From a virus, in the IMG/VR virus record IMGVR_UViG_3300002514_000197, positions 1-27,578 of that record: DNA of 27,578 bases. One strand, written 5' to 3'. A model generated the notes under the pieces. That model searched no databases. It was not told the origin of the DNA and saw nothing but the letters and a program-made list of their open reading frames with translations. The position numbers were made by a program, and so were the translations under genes. Numbering within the stretch: the first letter of the stretch is position 1; every line of letters starts with the position of its first letter. Below are positions 15,916 through 26,875 of this stretch, piece by piece.

Positions 15916-17799
15916 TTAGCTAGTAGCGCCTGCGCCGCCCATCATGTCTTGGACAACAACCAGTCCATACATATCAGGTCGAACCATCTTCTTGGCGTAC
16001 CGAGTCATGACACCCTTACGGGGCACGAAGTCCTCAGTACCGAAGATAGTCGGGGTGACCTGCAATGGCACGTATGGAGCGTACACATAGCCCGACTCAA
16101 GGAAGCTAGCGCCCTTGCGACCCACGAGAACAACGTTCCGCAGGAAGTAAGGATCAACGTAGACATCCCACTTCTTGGAGAGTGCACCAACCTTGACAGC
16201 ACCAACCGTACCACGATCAGCGTCACCAGTGACACTAGCGCGGAAACCAGCAGTGAACTCAAGGATGTTGGCGATCTCAGGACCACAAACAATGAAGTTT
16301 GCGCCACCGCGAAGCGTCTTGCGGTGAATCTGAGCGCTCACGTCGTTGATGGTCTCAACGAGAGTCTCATACCACTCAGACACGTTACCGGTGAAGTCGG
16401 GAGCCGCCGAAGAGGCACCAATTTCCTTACCAGTCTCGCGTTGAACAAACTTGGAAGGCGAACGTGACCAGAAGTAACGGCCAGCCTTCGCTCCAACAAC
16501 AAGGTCATTGAGAATCTCACGATCGATTTCAAGAGCAATCTGCTCCGAAAGGATCTGCGTAAGCTCAACCTCGGCATCGAGGTTATGATACGCATTGAGA
16601 TCTTGACCAAGCTCGGGAGTCCACTTAGCCTTGAGCTTCTTGGTCATCGCCGTAACGGCAATCGCATCCACCTTGATATCGATCTCGGGAATGTCAGTAT
16701 TCATTCCAGCGAGAGGTCCAATATTCTCAGTGTACGCGCTACCAGCGCCTTCAAGGCCCCATGGTGTACCAGGGACAACAGCACCAGCCTCACCAGCTCC
16801 GAAGCTATCGGCAACAGCGTAACTAAACTTGTTGCCCTCACGGGACATGAGAGAAAGAGTACCAGAAGCGAGCACCAACCGATCGGACTGTGAGCCCGTT
16901 GAAGCAGCCATAATGAGCAGCGTTGTACCATAAATGGTATCGAGCGGATCATACTGCGTCAAGCGACGAGCCTGTCTACCAGTCTCTGCGTGCGCATGAA
17001 TTCCTGCGGCAAGGGTGCCAGTCAGCGTATTCGCAATAGTAATAAGATTATCTTTATTAAGACTGGGGAAATTGGTGACTGCCACCGTACCAATAGCAAC
17101 ACCAGAACCAGAAAGGTCTGCGTCGTTACGGGTCACATAGTCAAAGTACTCCTGAACAGTGTTGAACGTAATGCTACCGAAGCCCGAGTTAGCAGTCGCC
17201 GGAAACGCAATCGTTTGCGGATCGGAGACATCTTCTCCAGCAACACCGGCATCAGCACCACCCACAGTACCAGTAACCATGGTGGTGATGAGAACAGTCT
17301 TGTCGTCGGTGAAAGAGCCAGTGGGCGAAGAGTAGCCGTTATTCAATGAATAAAAGCCTGTCTCATCGTTCAGCCCTGACAAGCTCACGCCGCCAGTGAT
17401 CTGCGAAGCAACCGCTCCACCGCCATACAGCGAACTATTGGCCGTAGCGCCAAAGCGAGCCTCGTTGAACGTAAAGTCCAAGAAGAAGATCAGACCAGAA
17501 GGCAAGCTCATGGGCTGAACACTAACAATATCATTGGCAATCAAGCCACCAAAAACACGACGAACGATGGGAAACGCAACAGAAGCAAAGCCCTGCACAT
17601 CACCACCAGCCATAGACGACGCTTCCTTAAGAAGCTGAGCCGCCTGATTCTCAAGCAAACGAGCCATAGTATTCTTTTTATGGTCGTGAGAGAGTCCTTC
17701 CAAAAGGCCGGTCTTGTCCCACTTTTCAAGCAGGGCAGCACCTTCATTTTGGAGGGAACGCTCTTTAATACCCTCAGTAAGGGTTTCTAAAACAGACAT
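15916..17799 (-). CDS. Major capsid protein, T4 gp23-like
   Basis: This is the shell protein of the T4 gp23 type (HK97 fold). Matches include VRRVFGGLIANDIVSVQPM (79-97), KAKWTPELGQDL (390-401) and LDAEVELTQILSEQIALEI near 407-425, all at gp23-like positions. The N-terminus (1-59) looks like the cleaved delta domain; LKE ending at Glu59 is a good gp21-type cut site, comparable with T4 cleavage after residue 65. At 627 aa it exceeds T4 gp23 (521 aa), the extra lying mainly between about 150 and 350. The ribosome-binding site is strong (AAGGAGG) and an intrinsic terminator follows the gene, consistent with very high expression. Confidence 0.95.
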   Translation of the reverse strand: MSVLETLTEGIKERSLQNEGAALLEKWDKTGLLEGLSHDHKKNTMARLLENQAAQLLKEASSMAGGDVQGFASVAFPIVRRVFGGLIANDIVSVQPMSLPSGLIFFLDFTFNEARFGATANSSLYGGGAVASQITGGVSLSGLNDETGFYSLNNGYSSPTGSFTDDKTVLITTMVTGTVGGADAGVAGEDVSDPQTIAFPATANSGFGSITFNTVQEYFDYVTRNDADLSGSGVAIGTVAVTNFPSLNKDNLITIANTLTGTLAAGIHAHAETGRQARRLTQYDPLDTIYGTTLLIMAASTGSQSDRLVLASGTLSLMSREGNKFSYAVADSFGAGEAGAVVPGTPWGLEGAGSAYTENIGPLAGMNTDIPEIDIKVDAIAVTAMTKKLKAKWTPELGQDLNAYHNLDAEVELTQILSEQIALEIDREILNDLVVGAKAGRYFWSRSPSKFVQRETGKEIGASSAAPDFTGNVSEWYETLVETINDVSAQIHRKTLRGGANFIVCGPEIANILEFTAGFRASVTGDADRGTVGAVKVGALSKKWDVYVDPYFLRNVVLVGRKGASFLESGYVYAPYVPLQVTPTIFGTEDFVPRKGVMTRYAKKMVRPDMYGLVVVQDMMGGAGATS

Positions 17800-17821: not shown

Positions 17822-18892
17822 CTATTTTAATCCAGCTAATGCTTTCCAACGATCTAAGGCTGGTGCTTGACCGTCTGGTGCTGCTTCGCCCTTACGAGCT
17901 AACAACATTGCTGAAGAAGAATGTTCAACGGCTTCGCTAAGTGATTCTGGATGGCGTTTGGTGCTGCCCACTGAGCTTTGAAGTGTCTCAAAAATTAATT
18001 TTGCCTCTTCAACAGATTTAGCCTCGGAGAGTTTTTCGGCAACTTGTGACTTTTGCCGCTCATTCAGGGAGTTGTTCTCCAAAACTTTAACTTTATAGAG
18101 AAGTTTAGCATTAACAACGTTGGATTCTTCAAGAATTCCTTTCATCATTGCTACTGCCTCTGTCAACTTCTCAATACGTGTATCTTTATTTTTAAGTTTT
18201 TTTGTATCATCTTCAATAGTCTTTTGAAGATCTTTATTCTCTTTTTGAAGCCCTTTCACTGCCTTGTTTATTGCCTCAAACTCTTCCTTGTGTTCATCGC
18301 TTTGCAACATTGCAAGCAATTGCTTAGCCTTATACTGCATTTTTGATTCAGGTGTACCAGCCCAGCCATCTTTTTCTGGCGAAATATCAACAGTAAGCGA
18401 CTCTGCTAATTCCTCCACGGCCTCTCTTATATCTTCCTCCGAGATTTTTTCCTCCGTAACGACTTCTTCATCCATCGGAGTCTCCTCTTCTAGGTTGTCC
18501 TCGGAAAGCAGCCCAAGCTCTTCATTAAGCTTCGCAAGATCAAGAACGACAGTTTCTTCGCCGGGAACCTCTTCGCCCTCCTCATCAGATGCCGTCAAGG
18601 CTTCAGCAGCATCTCCCTCTTCGTCAGGGCATAAGCATACTTTGGGCGTCATGCCTTCCGTATCTTGCTCTACCGAAGTCTTGATTTGATCCAAAACAGG
18701 CGGCTCCTGCGGGGCGCCCAGTTCCATCTCTTCCTCTTCATCCGCAAAAAACTCATCTTGTTCTAACATTTGCTCAACAGCTTCTTTAATCTGTTCGGAA
18801 TATTTGTCGACCACAGCAGCTTCAGCGCTGTTGTAGGCGGCCTCTCTAAGAGCGTCGGCTTCGACTATAGCTTGGTCAAGTAATGTGGACAT
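17822..18892 (-). CDS. Prohead scaffold (major core) protein, T4 gp22-like
   Basis: This protein forms the core on which the capsid shell assembles and is later cut up by the protease. At 356 aa it is highly acidic from about 45 to 165, then has a Lys/Glu coiled coil (about 205-275) and a block SLNERQK (275-281) followed by a conserved-looking helical segment (AKSVEEAKLIFETLQ) that I associate with T4-type head core proteins. The C-terminus ends RWKALAGLK, like a capsid-binding tail. Many (Leu/Ile)-x-Glu sites are present, as expected of a protease target. It lies directly upstream of the major capsid gene (22-base gap). An odd CLC pair sits in the acidic region (86-88). Confidence 0.88.
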   Translation of the reverse strand: MSTLLDQAIVEADALREAAYNSAEAAVVDKYSEQIKEAVEQMLEQDEFFADEEEEMELGAPQEPPVLDQIKTSVEQDTEGMTPKVCLCPDEEGDAAEALTASDEEGEEVPGEETVVLDLAKLNEELGLLSEDNLEEETPMDEEVVTEEKISEEDIREAVEELAESLTVDISPEKDGWAGTPESKMQYKAKQLLAMLQSDEHKEEFEAINKAVKGLQKENKDLQKTIEDDTKKLKNKDTRIEKLTEAVAMMKGILEESNVVNAKLLYKVKVLENNSLNERQKSQVAEKLSEAKSVEEAKLIFETLQSSVGSTKRHPESLSEAVEHSSSAMLLARKGEAAPDGQAPALDRWKALAGLK

Positions 18893-18953: not shown

Positions 18954-19421
18954 TTACGCCATTCCTGGACAATCGGTCACCCCTGAGCCAGTTAAATGCC
19001 ACATGCTAGATGCCGGAATGTTCGTAAGTTCGGCAAATATTTGGTAGGTCGCTGCGACGCCGCTTTGATTGGCGATATAGACCTTATCACATTTAGTATT
19101 AAAGGTTACTGAGCCGCTCTCCCCCACAACTTCAATATAGTGAAGGCCAGTGTGAACATCAGCAGTGGTGGTCGCACTTTGTTCACCCGCCGTCCCCGGT
19201 CTCGTGATCGAAGTGACCGTCGATCCGCTTTGAAACTGAACTTTAATATACGTCGTATTTGCCGCCGACGTATTAATAACTGTAAAGGACCTTGCAACAT
19301 AGGGAAACTGCATCATTTGCACTTTATCATTCGCAATGCTTGACCCCGATATCCACGGGGTACCCGACGACTGGTATGAAGGCGTATGCCATATTCCAGG
19401 ATTTCCATAATTCATTGCCAT
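18954..19421 (-). CDS. Small beta-rich protein, putative virion/head decoration protein
   Basis: A 155-aa protein rich in Ser, Thr, Gly and Val, with alternating hydrophobic strands (VARSFTVIN, TYIKVQFQSG, GLHYIEVVG, CDKVYIANQSG), the look of a single beta-sandwich domain. There is no signal peptide. It sits between bS21 and the scaffold gene, and its upstream gap contains the recurrent ACTATTTATTA motif. A capsid surface or decoration role fits composition and place, but no family was recognised with confidence. Confidence 0.72.
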   Translation of the reverse strand: MAMNYGNPGIWHTPSYQSSGTPWISGSSIANDKVQMMQFPYVARSFTVINTSAANTTYIKVQFQSGSTVTSITRPGTAGEQSATTTADVHTGLHYIEVVGESGSVTFNTKCDKVYIANQSGVAATYQIFAELTNIPASSMWHLTGSGVTDCPGMA

Positions 19422-19437: not shown

Positions 19438-19448
19438 TAATAAATAGT
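19438..19448 (-). promoter_or_regulatory. ACTATTTATTA motif upstream of small beta-rich protein gene, candidate late promoter
   Basis: Identical 11-mer to the one at 18918-18928; it overlaps the first base of the bS21 stop codon by one base and ends six bases before the GGAG of the next gene. Confidence 0.35.
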
Positions 19449-19678
19449 TATTTTATATCCAATTTCTTATTTCTTTCTTGTTCTGCTTTACGAGCATTAT
19501 TAATTTTTTGCTTCTTTTGTCTTCTTTTTTTGGTGGAGGGTTTTTCATAAAATCTTTTACTTAAGTATTTCTCCATTACCCTTTCTTTCTTGGTCTTCTT
19601 TATGAACTTCTTAATTAATCGATTCGTGTCACCACGAACCTCATTGAGAGTTACCTCAACATTTATTGCTCTACTCAT
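19448..19678 (-). CDS. rpsU: Ribosomal protein bS21, phage-encoded
   Basis: This 76-aa, very basic protein carries the bS21 signature: an N-terminal beta strand (INVEVT), a helix with RLIKKFIKKTKK, and FYEKPSTKKRR at 43-53, matching FYEKP-T/S-x-x-x-(K/R) in bacterial bS21, followed by a long Lys/Arg-rich helix. Length is close to E. coli bS21 (71 aa). bS21 binds the 30S platform near the 3' end of 16S rRNA and helps initiation on mRNA. It lies between putative internal head proteins and scaffold, with an AAAGGA ribosome-binding site, three bases after its neighbour, so it should be made late with the capsid genes. It looks intact. Phage bS21 homologues are known; the reading that it tunes host ribosomes toward phage mRNA is inference. 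Confidence 0.9.
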   Translation of the reverse strand: MSRAINVEVTLNEVRGDTNRLIKKFIKKTKKERVMEKYLSKRFYEKPSTKKRRQKKQKINNARKAEQERNKKLDIK

Positions 19679-19681
19679 TTT

Positions 19682-20083
19682 TCATCCTTTTAAAGCATCC
19701 CATTTACCACCGGCAAGCCTCATAATCCCAGTAATATCAACACCGGCATCGTCTGGCGGCACCCCTGCGAGTGCCGCCCCAAGGCCCTCTTCTGGTCCAG
19801 CCACCGGCTGTGTGTTCTCGAATACATTAATGTCAGTGCCAATCGGCCCAACCGATTCATTAAGACGACGAATTCTTTCTTGGCGCTGTCGCTCAAGTTC
19901 CTCTTCTTGGCGTCTTATGTCTGCCGGATCGGGACCTCTCTTCACCTCAGTTATAGTTTGCGCACCCATACCTCTTACGACTTCGGATACCACCTGAGAT
20001 AAAATGCCCTCTTCAAGAAGAACTTCTCTAATTGTTTGTTTAATCAAGGGCTTTAATACTTTTTTTAATTCATTTGTTTTCAT
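19682..20083 (-). CDS. 133-aa protein with related N-terminal peptide, putative internal head/core protein
   Basis: The N-terminus (MKTNELKKVLKPLIKQ then TIREVLLEE) is a looser version of the leader found in the two upstream genes: MK, then LK, then IK and a Glu-rich end. A charged coiled segment follows (about 55-75, RQEEELERQRQERIRR). The C-terminus is Gly/Pro-rich and ends KWDALKG, resembling the end of the scaffold protein (RWKALAGLK). The gene is followed after three bases by the bS21 start. The ribosome-binding site is weak. An in-frame seven-codon frame just upstream (MKVTKTE then TGA) looks like a remnant start. The function is unknown; association with the prohead core is inferred. 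Confidence 0.75.
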   Translation of the reverse strand: MKTNELKKVLKPLIKQTIREVLLEEGILSQVVSEVVRGMGAQTITEVKRGPDPADIRRQEEELERQRQERIRRLNESVGPIGTDINVFENTQPVAGPEEGLGAALAGVPPDDAGVDITGIMRLAGGKWDALKG

Positions 20084-20111: not shown

Positions 20112-20408
20112 TTATATAAGCCCCAGTTCTTTGCTTTTTGCAATTAAAGCTTGGTCACAACGTTTCACAACATCTAGTTTATTATTAAAATAATCCATTA
20201 CTTTAGCAGACAGTTCTTCATGTCTGGCGTCTTCCTCGGGGGAAAGGTAACCTTTATTCATTAAAATTTTAAGCTGTGTGGCTGTCTCGACGTAATCTGT
20301 GCAATCATCACCTTTATCTTTCTTAAAAAAGTCAAGAAATCCTTCTTTTACTGTTTTTTCTATCTCTTCTTTAATAATCTGTTTTAATTGTGATTTGGTG
20401 ATTTTCAT
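20112..20408 (-). CDS. Small protein with MKITK-type N-terminal peptide (98 aa), putative internal head protein
   Basis: The N-terminus MKITKSQLKQIIKEEI repeats that of the preceding gene, and the DNA of the first 16 codons differs at only 6 of 48 positions, so the leader was duplicated. The remainder is unrelated: a helical, charged domain of about 75 residues with two cysteines (in DDCTDY and KRCDQA). It follows its neighbour by 11 bases with an AAAGGA ribosome-binding site. A potential protease site, IKE, ends the leader. Role as an internal head or core protein is inferred from leader and position. Confidence 0.78.
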   Translation of the reverse strand: MKITKSQLKQIIKEEIEKTVKEGFLDFFKKDKGDDCTDYVETATQLKILMNKGYLSPEEDARHEELSAKVMDYFNNKLDVVKRCDQALIAKSKELGLI

Positions 20409-20419
20409 TGTTTATTCCT

Positions 20420-20827
20420 TTAGTACATTCCGCCGGTATCTCTATCTCTATAAGATGTCCGGGTGCCTTCTTCGCCTTGTGGGCCTGCGCCTATTGCCTT
20501 TAGAGCTTTTTCAAGTTCTGTTTTAAAGTTTGAGGCAATAGGCTCATCTGGATAATCTCCTAGAAACCAATATTTGTCATCGTCTTCAATTTTACCAATT
20601 ACTCCGTCTGCCAAGCTGTCGATATCGTAAGCGCCGATGATCACATGCTCAACGCCGTTAATACGGAGCTTGACCTCTGTTTGATCATATTTTGTTTCCA
20701 TTCCTAAAAATTCAACACTTGTTTCTGTACCTTCAAGTTCAAACGAAACTTTGCGGTTTTCTTCATTTAGGACTCTTCCAATCTCTTCTTTAATAATTTG
20801 CTTTAATTGTGCTTTTGTAATTTTCAT
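20420..20827 (-). CDS. Small protein with MKITK-type N-terminal peptide (135 aa), putative internal head protein
   Basis: The first 16 residues, MKITKAQLKQIIKEEI, are a short basic amphipathic helix almost identical to the start of the next gene's product. The rest is a separate, strand-rich acidic domain (about 26-100) with a Gly/Arg-rich end. Two (Leu/Ile)-x-Glu sites, IKE (12-14) and LNE (20-22), lie at the end of the shared peptide, where a gp21-type protease could cut. The gene overlaps the protease stop by four bases and has an AAGGA ribosome-binding site. An encapsidated protein delivered by a removable targeting peptide, like T4 internal proteins, is an inference. Confidence 0.8.
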   Translation of the reverse strand: MKITKAQLKQIIKEEIGRVLNEENRKVSFELEGTETSVEFLGMETKYDQTEVKLRINGVEHVIIGAYDIDSLADGVIGKIEDDDKYWFLGDYPDEPIASNFKTELEKALKAIGAGPQGEEGTRTSYRDRDTGGMY

Positions 20828-21441
20828 GATAGGATATCCTTAATTAAAGAATCAATCTTGTTTTCATTAATTAGAGTTTCATTAACGTTAATGTGCGGTC
20901 CAATAGAAATGTTTTTAGGTGATAAATACGCACCCGGTGTTGACGGCTCTGAGACCATATCAAAACAGATCAGTTGAAAATCATCCTCAACAATGGTTTG
21001 TCCATTGGATTCACGCACAGAACCAAGACCCCTTGAAGAGATGCCAAGTTTGATGCCTGACTTAACCAAGGACTTAAGAATTTTACCAGATGGTGTATCA
21101 AGAACTTCAATCTTGCCCATCACATTATCACCGTCCCACCACATCTTCGTTACGAGGTGGCTGGCGTTCTTTAGGTTGATAACAGAATCATCAGGGTGGT
21201 CAAGTTCCCCCAAGGAACGACGCTCGCTCACAGCATTTTGGTATCTTTCAAGCTCTCTCTGTAAAGTTTCTTTGCGATAAACTCTTCCGTTACCATTTTT
21301 AACACCAGCCCTTTGGCAAACGCCGACAAGATAAACGCCACCATTAGAAATGTTACGTTTCTCGGATTCGGTTAGCCGCTCAATAGGGCACCGGCCCTCG
21401 GGGCATAACTCAAAATATTCTGTAAGCAGTTGTTTTGCCAT
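20824..21441 (-). CDS. Prohead core protease, T4 gp21-like
   Basis: This serine protease of the T4 gp21 type (peptidase family S77) matures the prohead by cutting scaffold, capsid and internal proteins, typically after a (Leu/Ile)-x-Glu motif. At 205 aa it is close to T4 gp21 (212 aa). The two hallmark blocks are visible: GELDHP with catalytic His82, and KLGISSRGLG with the catalytic Ser at 135 or 136. Its start is coupled to the preceding 42-aa gene (TAATG), and its stop overlaps the next start (ATGA). The C-terminal 25 residues may be the self-removed part, but I could not place the cut. Confidence 0.94.
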   Translation of the reverse strand: MAKQLLTEYFELCPEGRCPIERLTESEKRNISNGGVYLVGVCQRAGVKNGNGRVYRKETLQRELERYQNAVSERRSLGELDHPDDSVINLKNASHLVTKMWWDGDNVMGKIEVLDTPSGKILKSLVKSGIKLGISSRGLGSVRESNGQTIVEDDFQLICFDMVSEPSTPGAYLSPKNISIGPHINVNETLINENKIDSLIKDILS

Positions 21442-22535: not shown

Positions 22536-23334
22536 CGCTTTGTAGCTCCCCTACAAGCTCTTGCAGCTTAAGCACTTTCTTCAGAAGATCACCATCTATC
22601 CACTGGCCCTTGAACGAGTCAATCACCTCCAACACCGGCTCAAAGTTATTGTTCTTACTTGACTCACTGTGTACGGCTTCTCTCAGCCTAGCAATCTCAG
22701 TGTTGAGGAATATTTTAAGACCCAACCCATTGTCAGAAAACGAATTAATGTACTTTTGTAGGAGCGTTTCTTGCTCCGCAAGCAACTTCTTGTCAAACAT
22801 AGCATTAAACTTTTTAATATGAGTTCGCATAACAAGCTTGTCCGTCGACACTTTCTTGCTTTTTTTTGCCTCTGCGAGAGGTCTTTTCGTCATATACCCC
22901 AAAAACTGCTCTTCCAGAATAACCCTACTCTTGGGGCCGAGTTCCCCGCTGAACAACTGGTATGCCGTTGCCATAGAGGTGTACGATGGTACAAAATTAT
23001 CAAACACCTCAGAAGACAGCAACTTGTTTATCTTATTAATAAGGCTCGTCTGTTCTGCGAACATTTCATCTTGCGGAAGAGCAGCATGTTGGCTACAAGC
23101 CTCTTTGAGCACTTTCTCTGCCTGTCGGGGCGTGACGCCGTCAGTCGATAAAATAGATTTATAGATGGAAAGTTCACCCTTCAGCAAAGAATTCGCACCA
23201 AAAGACTCTTTCAAGATCTTTAAAATAACTTTCTTTCTCTCGACATCGTTGGCGATGATGGACTTAGTTAACTCTTTAGAGAGAACTTCAAACAAGAACG
23301 CCGTATTTCTTTTTTTATTGTGTTTTAGTCTCAT
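22525..23334 (-). CDS. Uncharacterised helical 269-aa protein downstream of portal
   Basis: I do not recognise this family. The protein has a basic N-terminus (MRLKHNKKRN), is predominantly helical by eye with many Lys/Glu/Leu repeats, and has no membrane segment. It overlaps the 3' end of the portal gene by 20 bases and the next gene by 11 bases. In T4 the equivalent interval between portal and protease holds the prohead core genes 67 and 68, which are much smaller; position makes a head-assembly or core role plausible, but no sequence similarity is claimed. Confidence 0.8.
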   Translation of the reverse strand: MRLKHNKKRNTAFLFEVLSKELTKSIIANDVERKKVILKILKESFGANSLLKGELSIYKSILSTDGVTPRQAEKVLKEACSQHAALPQDEMFAEQTSLINKINKLLSSEVFDNFVPSYTSMATAYQLFSGELGPKSRVILEEQFLGYMTKRPLAEAKKSKKVSTDKLVMRTHIKKFNAMFDKKLLAEQETLLQKYINSFSDNGLGLKIFLNTEIARLREAVHSESSKNNNFEPVLEVIDSFKGQWIDGDLLKKVLKLQELVGELQSDVG

Positions 23335-25297
23335 TTAGTTTAATCTCTAATCCTTCAAGCATGCTGTCTATCTCTCGCTTTGATCCGAATATGTGTTTCT
23401 CTTCCCTCGATAAACCATCTTCTTCTATATAATTAGAGTCTTTGCCCTCTGAAAGATACCCCTGGAAAGGTAATTCTACAGCATTCCTTATCTCAGACCC
23501 TGTCCAAGTCCCCCTATGTGTTCTTCGAGGGCCCTGCTCAAGGGGGACAATATTCTTCTTTGTTTCTTTTTTAAAAGCGACTGCTGCCTTATCCCTTCTT
23601 TTAGGCTTATGTGTTTTTCCTTTCCACTTCGGCTTTGTATACTCTGGGGCCCCCGGAACGGGGTCCGGTGACTCAGTGACTTCCTCTCCCGGCTTTGCTA
23701 GTAACACATCATCTTCCACTTCTCCACCAGCGCCTTCTTCACCACCGGCCTCACTAGGTGGCTCTTCCGCGCCACCCAATTCGAATCCACCTCCCTCCAT
23801 CTCTGTGCCTCCGGTAAGGTCCATTCCCATAGCGGCTTCTTCGGCTTTGATTGATTGTTCAAGCGCTAAGTCAAGCTTTTTATCAAAGAACCTCTCTCTC
23901 TGCATGCGCAGCGTTTCTTTCTCAGATATATTAAAAATGTTCTCAAATACCCATCTACGAGAAAAGTACCCCTCCGACCCAGCAGAAGCGACATCAAATT
24001 TGGTCCTCCAGTGCTCTAGCTCTTGTAGTTCGGCGAGCTTGGAAGGGTTGTTCAGGGTCAGTCTAAAACTTGTAAGATCTCTACCGCGATAGCCAAGAGT
24101 AAAAAGATGGATGATCGCCACCTTTTCAAGTTCCGAGACAACAGACTTCTGTAGTCTCTGTATTGTTCTCGCAAATCGAATATCCTTTTGCGCCAAGGTT
24201 GTTTTATCTTCTGTCCCTCCTTCCATGTTTGTAAGGTAAGAGGCCGGTATCTTCAGCGCAGCAAATAGCTTATCTCTCAAATATCTGATATCATCGATGT
24301 CGCCTGTGTATGTGCCTCCCGGTAAGTTCTCTATCCTCGTGCCTTGCTGGCCCCCTCGAACAGGGATAAAATAATCCTCTTCAGTAGACATCGGATTATA
24401 ACGCAAATCTACTCGACCAGTATTTTGATTAACAATTTGATTCCTTTTCATCTGCGTTATAACGCGCTGCATGTACTGCTCAACGTCCTGTGGTGCGATA
24501 TTTCCCACATCCACATAGAACACTCTACGCTCCGGTGATCTTACGATACGATACGCCATAACAGCATCTTCCATTAACGTAAGTTGTCTCCAAATTCTAC
24601 GAGCGGGCTCTAAAACAGAAGTGCCATATGGAACATACTTATCATTACCTAAAATACGAAAATGTGCAACCTGCCAGTTCTCAAACGTCATCGCCCCCTG
24701 GTTCCACTGAAACTGCACGTATTTAGGGTTCGTCTTATCCTCGCCCTCTAGCCTTTCGATCTCATTCGATGGAAGACCTATGGCGTACTTAATGCCGTCA
24801 TTATCGTCAATGTCAAGGTAAAGAAAGAAGTCTCCATACTTACACATCGCTCGTGTCCATCCGAAAAGATTAAACTCCAAGTTAAGAATTTTAAAAAACA
24901 GGTTGTCTAATATGCCTTTTATCTCTTCACTATTGGTCTTGATATTTAACATATCATTAAGCTCATTGCTGGTAGTCATCTCGTCAGCATAGATGTCCAG
25001 CGCGGATGCGATTTCAGGAGTAAACTCCATCTGGTCAAAATCAATATACCGTTCGCCCCGCTGTTGATTTGACATATAGGAGAACGCAAGCGACTTATAG
25101 GGATTGTGGTCCTCTCGCTTAAACGATTGGCCAGAAGCAGACTTAAACTGACTCGCTTGGGTGGCGTACTGCCTAGACTTTAGCTGTCTTGGCTGCTCCC
25201 TGTCATAAACAGCAAGGGGTCCCGAAAGCAGCCTCGTTAGCTGTCTGTACAGCCTGCTGGCGGGGTTATTAGGATTTTTAATGTTGTTTTTTGCCAC
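23315..25297 (-). CDS. Portal vertex protein, T4 gp20-like
   Basis: The portal is the dodecameric ring at the unique capsid vertex through which DNA is packaged and to which the neck attaches. The gp20 signature is clear: RSPERRVFYVDVGN (253-266), then MSTEEDYFIPVRGG (303-316) and IENLPGG (322-328). The start codon is GTG at 25297, with a GGGG ribosome-binding stretch lying in the last codons of terminase; no better ATG is present. At 660 aa it is longer than T4 gp20 (524 aa). The excess is a C-terminal tail from about residue 490: Gly/Glu-rich and acidic to about 545, strongly Lys/Arg-rich to about 600, then a helical end. The last 20 bases overlap the next gene. Confidence 0.96.
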   Translation of the reverse strand: MAKNNIKNPNNPASRLYRQLTRLLSGPLAVYDREQPRQLKSRQYATQASQFKSASGQSFKREDHNPYKSLAFSYMSNQQRGERYIDFDQMEFTPEIASALDIYADEMTTSNELNDMLNIKTNSEEIKGILDNLFFKILNLEFNLFGWTRAMCKYGDFFLYLDIDDNDGIKYAIGLPSNEIERLEGEDKTNPKYVQFQWNQGAMTFENWQVAHFRILGNDKYVPYGTSVLEPARRIWRQLTLMEDAVMAYRIVRSPERRVFYVDVGNIAPQDVEQYMQRVITQMKRNQIVNQNTGRVDLRYNPMSTEEDYFIPVRGGQQGTRIENLPGGTYTGDIDDIRYLRDKLFAALKIPASYLTNMEGGTEDKTTLAQKDIRFARTIQRLQKSVVSELEKVAIIHLFTLGYRGRDLTSFRLTLNNPSKLAELQELEHWRTKFDVASAGSEGYFSRRWVFENIFNISEKETLRMQRERFFDKKLDLALEQSIKAEEAAMGMDLTGGTEMEGGGFELGGAEEPPSEAGGEEGAGGEVEDDVLLAKPGEEVTESPDPVPGAPEYTKPKWKGKTHKPKRRDKAAVAFKKETKKNIVPLEQGPRRTHRGTWTGSEIRNAVELPFQGYLSEGKDSNYIEEDGLSREEKHIFGSKREIDSMLEGLEIKLNETKTQ

Positions 25298-25300
25298 TTT

Positions 25301-26875
25301 CTACCCCTTCAGTAACCACGAATACTCTCTATACTTCTCAACCTCACCCGTCTGCTGTATCTCCTCGAACCCATGCATACCAGGAATTGTAGTATTCATG
25401 GTGGTGGGGTTGCGCACCATACATTTCAAAAATGTTTCTCTATAACTCACGTCCCTCTGCCCTTCAACAAAAACACTATCCTTAACCCAGCACCCAATTG
25501 CGCATGCCATTATAAGATCATCATTGCTTTTGCGTGACGCCTGCGGGCGTCCGGACTTCCAAACAAATTGCTCCATCTCAGCCAAGGTCCTTCTTGAATA
25601 TATTTTAATTAGTTTATTTCGTACAAACTCTTCCATTTTGGCAATTATCAAAGGTCTCGTTTTTTGTGTGGTGGCAAACCCTGGGATTGCTGTCGACATA
25701 TACTCTCCAATATAGCTCTCCACGTATTCGTGCGTACTCTTCTTGGAATAGTATATGTTCGGGTAACCTCTGTTAATTAACTTTTCTAAAACAGAAAAGC
25801 CCACGGTGTTATTTTCAACAACTAACATAGAGTTGCCGTACTGTTTTCCTGCGCTCATTAGAACCTCTGAAAAAATATCAGGCGTCGGCTTCCCTTTATA
25901 CTCAGCCACAACCTCATTAGTGTCAATTCTTATTACATGAAAGACAGAAAAATCATTACCATCTCCTCTTGCCACATCAGCCGAAATAAAATAATCAGCA
26001 GATTCATCATACTCCCGCCAGATCCACAAATTTCTATCAAACCCTGTTTTATATTTGGGGTCCTCACACCCCTCCTTCATTCTCTGTATATCTTCCGAAT
26101 CAAAAACAGTTTCACCAGACATGTTAAAATTGCACTCTAGTTCCTGTGCGATCTGTCTTCTTGACATATTACGAGTTTCTTTATCAAACCACTCCTGCCC
26201 CCTATCGGGATGTACTTCCCACGGTAGCACCGTCAGATTGAAATCATTTTCGCCACTCTCAGCTTTAGAGCAAATCTCATGGAACCAATTACCAACCCCA
26301 TTCGGAGTTGACAAAGCTATACACCGGCCGCCTGTCGAAAGTGTAGGGTACAAACCGGTCCATAATTCTTCGAGCCCATCAACGTGCGCGGCCTCGTCAA
26401 TAACCAATAAGGATAGCGCCTCAGAACGACCAGCGTCTCCGCTAGTTGACGAAGCTTTTATTTGTGACCCATTTGATAATTCAAATGATGCCCTATTGTC
26501 AATGGAAATGTTTGTAATTTGCATCCAAGCAGGCAAATTCTTAATCATCGCCTTAACCTTTTTAACCAAGTTGGAAGCCGTACCAAATTTAGTAGCAATG
26601 ACAAGAACGTTCTTATCCCTATGAAAAAGCATGAGCCACGCCACATATGCCGCAGTCACAGTAGAAATGCCGAGCTGCCTTGCCTTTAATATGACATTAA
26701 AGCGATAGTCGTTAAACTCATGCACCAGATCCCTCTGAAAGTCGTAAGTCTTAAACGGGATAAGGCCTCTCATGGGGTGGGATATTCTACAATAGCTGTT
26801 TATAAAATAAGCCGGGTCTTTACCCGATTTTACAATTTCTTTTACAATCTCGTCCTTTGAAAGCTCAAAAGACAT
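25301..26875 (-). CDS. Terminase large subunit, T4 gp17-like
   Basis: This is the ATP-driven DNA packaging motor and headful nuclease that docks on the portal. At 524 aa it is somewhat shorter than T4 gp17. The ATPase domain comes first: a deviant Walker A, KARQLGIST (64-72); Walker B, LLVIDE (156-161), with the catalytic Glu161; and a coupling motif LSTPNG (188-193). The RNase H-like nuclease follows: Asp300 in SADVARGDGND, Glu354 in LVVENN and Asp453 in NDDLIMA form the usual acidic triad. The gene starts at an ATG overlapping the upstream stop (TAATG) and ends with TAG three bases before the portal start. No small terminase subunit could be recognised in the window. Confidence 0.96.
   Translation of the reverse strand: MSFELSKDEIVKEIVKSGKDPAYFINSYCRISHPMRGLIPFKTYDFQRDLVHEFNDYRFNVILKARQLGISTVTAAYVAWLMLFHRDKNVLVIATKFGTASNLVKKVKAMIKNLPAWMQITNISIDNRASFELSNGSQIKASSTSGDAGRSEALSLLVIDEAAHVDGLEELWTGLYPTLSTGGRCIALSTPNGVGNWFHEICSKAESGENDFNLTVLPWEVHPDRGQEWFDKETRNMSRRQIAQELECNFNMSGETVFDSEDIQRMKEGCEDPKYKTGFDRNLWIWREYDESADYFISADVARGDGNDFSVFHVIRIDTNEVVAEYKGKPTPDIFSEVLMSAGKQYGNSMLVVENNTVGFSVLEKLINRGYPNIYYSKKSTHEYVESYIGEYMSTAIPGFATTQKTRPLIIAKMEEFVRNKLIKIYSRRTLAEMEQFVWKSGRPQASRKSNDDLIMACAIGCWVKDSVFVEGQRDVSYRETFLKCMVRNPTTMNTTIPGMHGFEEIQQTGEVEKYREYSWLLKG

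Follow-up and report, generated by a model that had tools for sequence, protein, structure and literature searches.

Ribosomal protein bS21 has been described among the structural genes of 388 of 900 phages by Chen et al. 2022 (PMC9723584), and the accessible sections of that study report its transcription with structural genes late in infection and propose both a late ribosome hijack and packaging of the protein in the virion. Substitution of the host bS21 in favor of phage mRNA was likewise predicted, according to the available part of PMC7162821. In the Bacteroidetes phages of Chen et al., as far as the accessible text describes them, bS21 lies near TerL, portal, prohead protease and major capsid protein (MCP) genes, as it does here, but on the strand opposite the head genes, and position 54 (the Tyr54 position) is still aromatic. 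Pelagibacter myovirus HTVC008M also carries a phage bS21, which enters E. coli 70S ribosomes; in that E. coli system, ribosomes with the phage protein made ~5% of the normal amount of protein (PMC6375957, accessible sections). Its bS21 gene is located near heat-shock protein and clamp genes rather than head genes, in contrast to the head-operon gene described here, and this agrees with the statement, in the accessible part of PMC7029224, that S21 belongs to no specific cluster in pelagimyophages. Microcystis phage Mel-JY01 (PP395634), an isolate, has the same slot as our locus (protease, one gene, RpsU, more genes, capsid, all co-directional), although its bS21 retains Gly in the turn; our literature search returned no paper naming this phage. 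Flavobacterium phage immuto has an MCP and protease close to those studied here, but there was no bS21 in the 9.5 kb of its head region that were examined. The accessible portions of PMC9004378, PMC13157829 and PMC7481178 contain nothing on a head-operon bS21 slot.

The window, meaning the whole stretch of DNA that was analyzed, is a linear IMG/VR fragment of 27,578 bases with no Rfam match and no tRNA. Its minus strand, on which all of the window's features named below lie, carries a T4-like block in the order TerL, portal, three ORFs, S77 protease, two small leader ORFs, core gene, bS21, a 155-aa ORF, a scaffold-like ORF and gp23. The terminase large subunit (25301-26875; Pfam, PHROGs), gp20-like portal (23315-25297; Pfam) and gp21-like prohead protease (20824-21441; Peptidase_S77, PF03420, 3.6e-34; PHROGs) are followed by proteins of 135 aa (20420-20827) and 98 aa (20112-20408) with the leader-like N termini MKITKAQLKQIIKEE and MKITKSQLKQIIKEE, respectively. 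The core gene, our name for the conserved companion of bS21, encodes 133 aa (19682-20083) with a C-terminal W-x-A-[LIM]-K motif and a leader-like N-terminal helix, so that it and its two neighbors share a leader-like N terminus. Its stop codon ends 3 bases ahead of the bS21 ATG, exactly the spacing given in the first-pass annotation, and a Shine-Dalgarno (SD)-like AAAAGGATG overlaps the stop at this junction (19679-19695); judged from this arrangement, bS21 is likely translationally coupled to the core gene. Gene place and coupling fit the late co-expression with capsid genes proposed in that annotation, which had, however, put bS21 just before the scaffold; a 155-aa ORF without a Pfam or PHROG match (18954-19421) intervenes. 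From place, acidic composition and C terminus (RWKALAGLK), we infer that the 356-aa product of 17822-18892 is the scaffold. The gp23-like MCP (15916-17799; 627 aa; Pfam, 1.6e-71) completes the block, and its Pfam domain is matched in two pieces ~200 residues apart, as it is in 25 of the 29 relatives with a match. A C-terminal motif similar to that of the window's scaffold-like protein ends the pre-capsid proteins of two other loci, L359 (5422-6663) and L360 (8342-9442), as RWQKLAGIIK and RMKKLAGIVK. KWDALKG forms the end of the core protein, and pre-capsid and core proteins perhaps carry a common capsid-binding tail.

The bS21 ORF (19448-19678) is complete, starts with ATG and encodes 76 aa, with predicted helices at residues 18-42 and 47-75 around a KPS turn. 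It had been read at first pass as a very basic protein of bS21 type, and this reading was borne out by a net charge of +18 (pI 10.7), by a match to the PHROG 'ribosomal protein S21' (E = 4.1e-6) and by a profile search in which PF01165 (Ribosomal_S21) matched at E = 4.5e-6, though its score of 26.7 bits falls 0.3 bit short of the curated cut-off of 27 bits. PF01165 was matched in all 50 of the relatives' loci that were counted (50 of 51 IMG/VR loci, L021 being left out) and exceeded the cut-off in 49; three long relatives reached only 18.8-21.5 bits. Such low scores could reflect drift off the ribosome. The short, basic, two-helix protein has the turn motif [FYH]-x-K-P-S as FYEKPS, and the bacterial-type bS21 core, including F25, K27 and K46-P47-S48, is retained in the head-operon bS21s. 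Chance homology was dismissed because a profile built from 24 phage bS21s retrieved bS21, at E <= 1, from 42 of the 49 bacterial genomes searched. Purifying selection is strong: of the 21 pairs among seven close bS21s, 8 were free of silent-site saturation and gave omega values of 0.03-0.12, although these values are rough, every dS being > 1. A fairly confident structure model (pLDDT 83.8, pTM 0.43) gave eight Foldseek matches, all of them weak ribosome entries (best E = 1.6), and aligned weakly to solved bS21 (Z 2.6-4.4, rmsd 8-15 Å). A tblastn search of 50,697 phage records with the window bS21 returned no match at E <= 0.01. Homology to bS21 is secure on the strength of profiles, relatives and selection. 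One relative, L008 (5986-6342), has a bS21 ORF with a tandemly duplicated C-terminal part, which is either an assembly error or a true duplication.

The window bS21 turned out to be ordinary for its lineage. A scan of IMG/VR identified 51 loci with a relative of it, and among 50 of these a protease was present in 38, a portal in 30 and gp23 in 29, with all three missing in 3. The order portal, protease, bS21, MCP was constant across the 50 records, and 97 of 97 portal, protease and MCP features lay on the bS21 strand, unlike in the phages of Chen et al. All 12 records without a protease have <2.5 kb remaining upstream. In 51 of 51 loci the gene before bS21 is a member of the core family (three clipped at the contig end, one of them to 6 residues), and, with start codons picked by the analyst, bS21 begins -4 to +10 nt from the core stop in 50 loci and at +42 in the other. 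Two further sets of loci were anchored on the core gene and on the protease. Some contigs occur in more than one set, and loci were ranked by their similarity to the window, so the counts apply to its lineage and not to T4-like phages in general. In the core-anchored set (the best 80 of the core relatives in viral contigs, which number at least 584), bS21 lies downstream in 72 loci, adjacent in 63 and at 0.5-2.4 kb in 9; 3 of the 8 loci without it end within 130 nt. Four loci (L086, L089, L099 and L117) have the core gene with no bS21 directly after it, and the record of L089, which is among the five not ending so soon, carries bS21 about 5 kb further downstream; insertions can shift bS21 away from the core gene without its loss. 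In the protease-anchored set (the best 80 of 596), 62 loci have both core and bS21, 3 have the core only and 15, most of them cut short, have neither; none has bS21 without the core. Where at least 700 nt remain downstream, bS21 is present in 62 of 68 loci, and where at least 2 kb remain, in 52 of 53, always co-directional, with L306 as the exception. PF01165 matched once in 14 of 16 records of at least 100 kb and never twice. The location inside the capsid operon, which had been singled out initially as the unusual part, is the rule in this lineage once gene order is compared (52/53), was already published in 2022 (PMC9723584, accessible sections), and is neither novel nor unusual. What the present analysis adds is the lineage-wide pattern of near-universal presence, a nearly constant companion and a separate group.

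The companion is itself a large family. K11-P12, G26 and W128 are invariant in 19 aligned members, and no match above chance was obtained against Pfam and PHROGs; a weak Pfam match to a RelB-like antitoxin in 6 of the 19 (best E = 0.004) was taken as chance and rejected. The core protein of one relative (L011) had no tblastn match at E <= 0.1 in the 50,697 phage records, the 154-aa bS21 neighbor in Mel-JY01 did not match the core profile, and the structure model of the core protein was poor (pLDDT 61.6). Neither the core companion nor a single bS21 lineage of head operons was the subject of any paper returned by our literature search, which subscription papers mostly fell outside and which other wording could have escaped.

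Head-operon bS21s differ from cellular ones in charge. Lys occupies position 30 in all 44 distinct head-operon bS21s and in 109 of 110 further ones (153/154), recruited with a profile that itself carries Lys at that position, but in none of the 30 cellular rows, where the residue is E, Q, S, A or D; HTVC008M has Met. Chen et al. place phage-specific bS21 changes in this same first helix, above the anti-SD, in the accessible text (PMC9723584). The median net charge is +23 for the 44 head-operon proteins versus +13 for 25 cellular rows, those of at least 90 aa being excluded. A change of Gly33 to Arg/Lys was considered as a phage mark and rejected: it holds in 42 of 44 bS21s near the window, but 53 of the 110 further ones keep Gly. 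The window bS21 has no Y, F or W after the KPS turn, unlike the phages of Chen et al., and among the 44 distinct sequences 5 carry such a residue at any tail position.

Phylogenetic trees were built from 75-81 usable columns, with long branches and with phage rows recruited by similarity, and the cellular rows were bS21s from the 30 of 42 matched genomes whose loci were fetched; an earlier scan of genome contigs with the phage profile had matched 335 stretches, none of them a relative. In the first tree the 44 head-operon bS21s formed one group (support 100/97). A later tree, in which 40 random members of the 107 further sequences and 9 of the first set were placed against 27 cellular rows, again separated the group from cellular bS21 (support 99/94; all 200 bootstrap trees); the long-branched cellular rows L258, L262 and L266 were dropped from the later trees. 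HTVC008M bS21 grouped with Alphaproteobacteria, as published, in contrast to the head-operon bS21s, and because of this placement the phage label requires two changes on the first tree. The bS21s of Mel-JY01, outside the window's group, and LR756508 have long branches (2.5 and 3.3), and either one acquisition into the slot or several would fit them. Few columns and long branches limit the trees, and a single origin of the head-operon bS21s is possible. Across 62 loci, bS21 distances correlated with those of the core (r 0.63) and the protease (r 0.47), and core with protease (r 0.52); none of 1,000 permutations reached these values, the maximum for bS21 and core being 0.18. Because the bS21 group stands separate and its distances follow core and protease, head-operon bS21 looks like an old, vertically kept, phage-owned gene and not a recent host capture. 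Branching inside one bacterial order, which the first-pass annotation had offered as a sign of capture and a means of naming the host, was not seen: the head-operon bS21s fall outside all sampled cellular bS21s, so no host is assigned.

Initiation signals in the window are strong. An SD energy of <= -4.5 kcal/mol was obtained for 23 of 27 window starts, picked by the analyst, versus 173 of the 549 remaining ATGs of that strand, and the MCP start has the best SD of all (-11.6 kcal/mol). SD-led genes are a further difference from the Bacteroidetes phages in the accessible text of Chen et al. The Bacteroidia-type ribosome hides its anti-SD (PMC9976891, accessible part), and a host ribosome of this type appears disfavored because the window's genes are SD-led and its bS21 tail has no aromatic.

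We consider it reasonably probable that this is a phage-owned bS21 of a T4-like lineage, made in the late head operon behind a head-core-like gene, which enters the 30S subunit and favors SD-led late phage mRNAs. The protein would be synthesized late, together with the head proteins, and, by analogy with HTVC008M, would enter newly made subunits or exchange with host bS21. Once in the 30S it would sit next to the anti-SD, where Lys30 may add positive charge on the first helix and favor initiation on strongly SD-led late phage mRNAs, with capsid gene mRNA as the main beneficiary. Since the lineage appears to have kept bS21 for a long time, the protein is probably used for biasing host ribosomes during new virion production. 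The ~5% translation result is as compatible with inhibition as with bias.

That result is one ground for a different function, in which bS21 regulates its own operon or inhibits host translation, through mRNA binding or poisoned host initiation and not through selection of phage mRNA. The conserved coupling to the core gene also suits it, but the published assay was done across distant species, active ribosomes are required for late phage synthesis and the window has no known structured RNA family; we regard it as improbable. A non-ribosomal role, in which a basic protein derived from bS21 now serves head assembly or DNA condensation together with the core protein encoded next to it, would account for several observations: bS21 occurs without the core in 0 of 62 protease-anchored loci, the bS21-core distance correlation is far above its permutation maximum, the net charge is raised and some members score below the PF01165 cut-off. 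Linkage to the core is weak as an argument for a head role, however, because head gene order is rigid anyway; core and bS21 are separated by at least 0.4 kb in 7 of 62 protease-anchored and 9 of 72 core-anchored loci, and the bS21 core motif and two-helix spacing are under strong purifying selection, all of which leaves this reading unlikely.

Packaging in the virion had been raised in the first-pass annotation and was already proposed in print (PMC9723584, accessible sections); the protein would then be injected and act on ribosomes as the next infection starts. The window bS21 sits among leader-bearing head proteins, and its place in the operon suggests co-expression with the shell. T4-type internal head proteins have a capsid-targeting leader before a protease site, but a leader pattern that 28 of 45 distinct core proteins carry was found in 0 of 44 distinct bS21s; the analyst drew this pattern from the window's neighbors and not from curated T4 motifs. 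The result speaks only against packaging by way of a leader, and it lowers the likelihood of virion packaging, to which we give little chance. A broader proposal, rather unlikely in our estimate, is that a large T4-like lineage, most of it uncultivated, fixed one ancient bS21 in its head module, where the protein is now the obligate partner of an undescribed head-core protein. Ribosome remodeling would thereby be linked to head assembly, for example if the core chaperones or sequesters bS21 or if both are carried into the next cell.

The window bS21 is ordinary in kind, and the lineage-wide pattern makes it more useful as a test case than one window alone suggests. The lineage suggests that phage bS21 is not a passing host acquisition and that one bS21 lineage has been inherited with the head operon. 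The charge change at position 30 is nearly fixed and lies in the helix said, in the accessible text of Chen et al. (PMC9723584), to overlie the anti-SD. For late ribosome takeover, the lineage offers a defined residue (Lys30), a partner gene (the core) and, in Mel-JY01, an isolate whose head genes share the slot. If the broader proposal is true, the core-bS21 pair would tie ribosome remodeling to head assembly.
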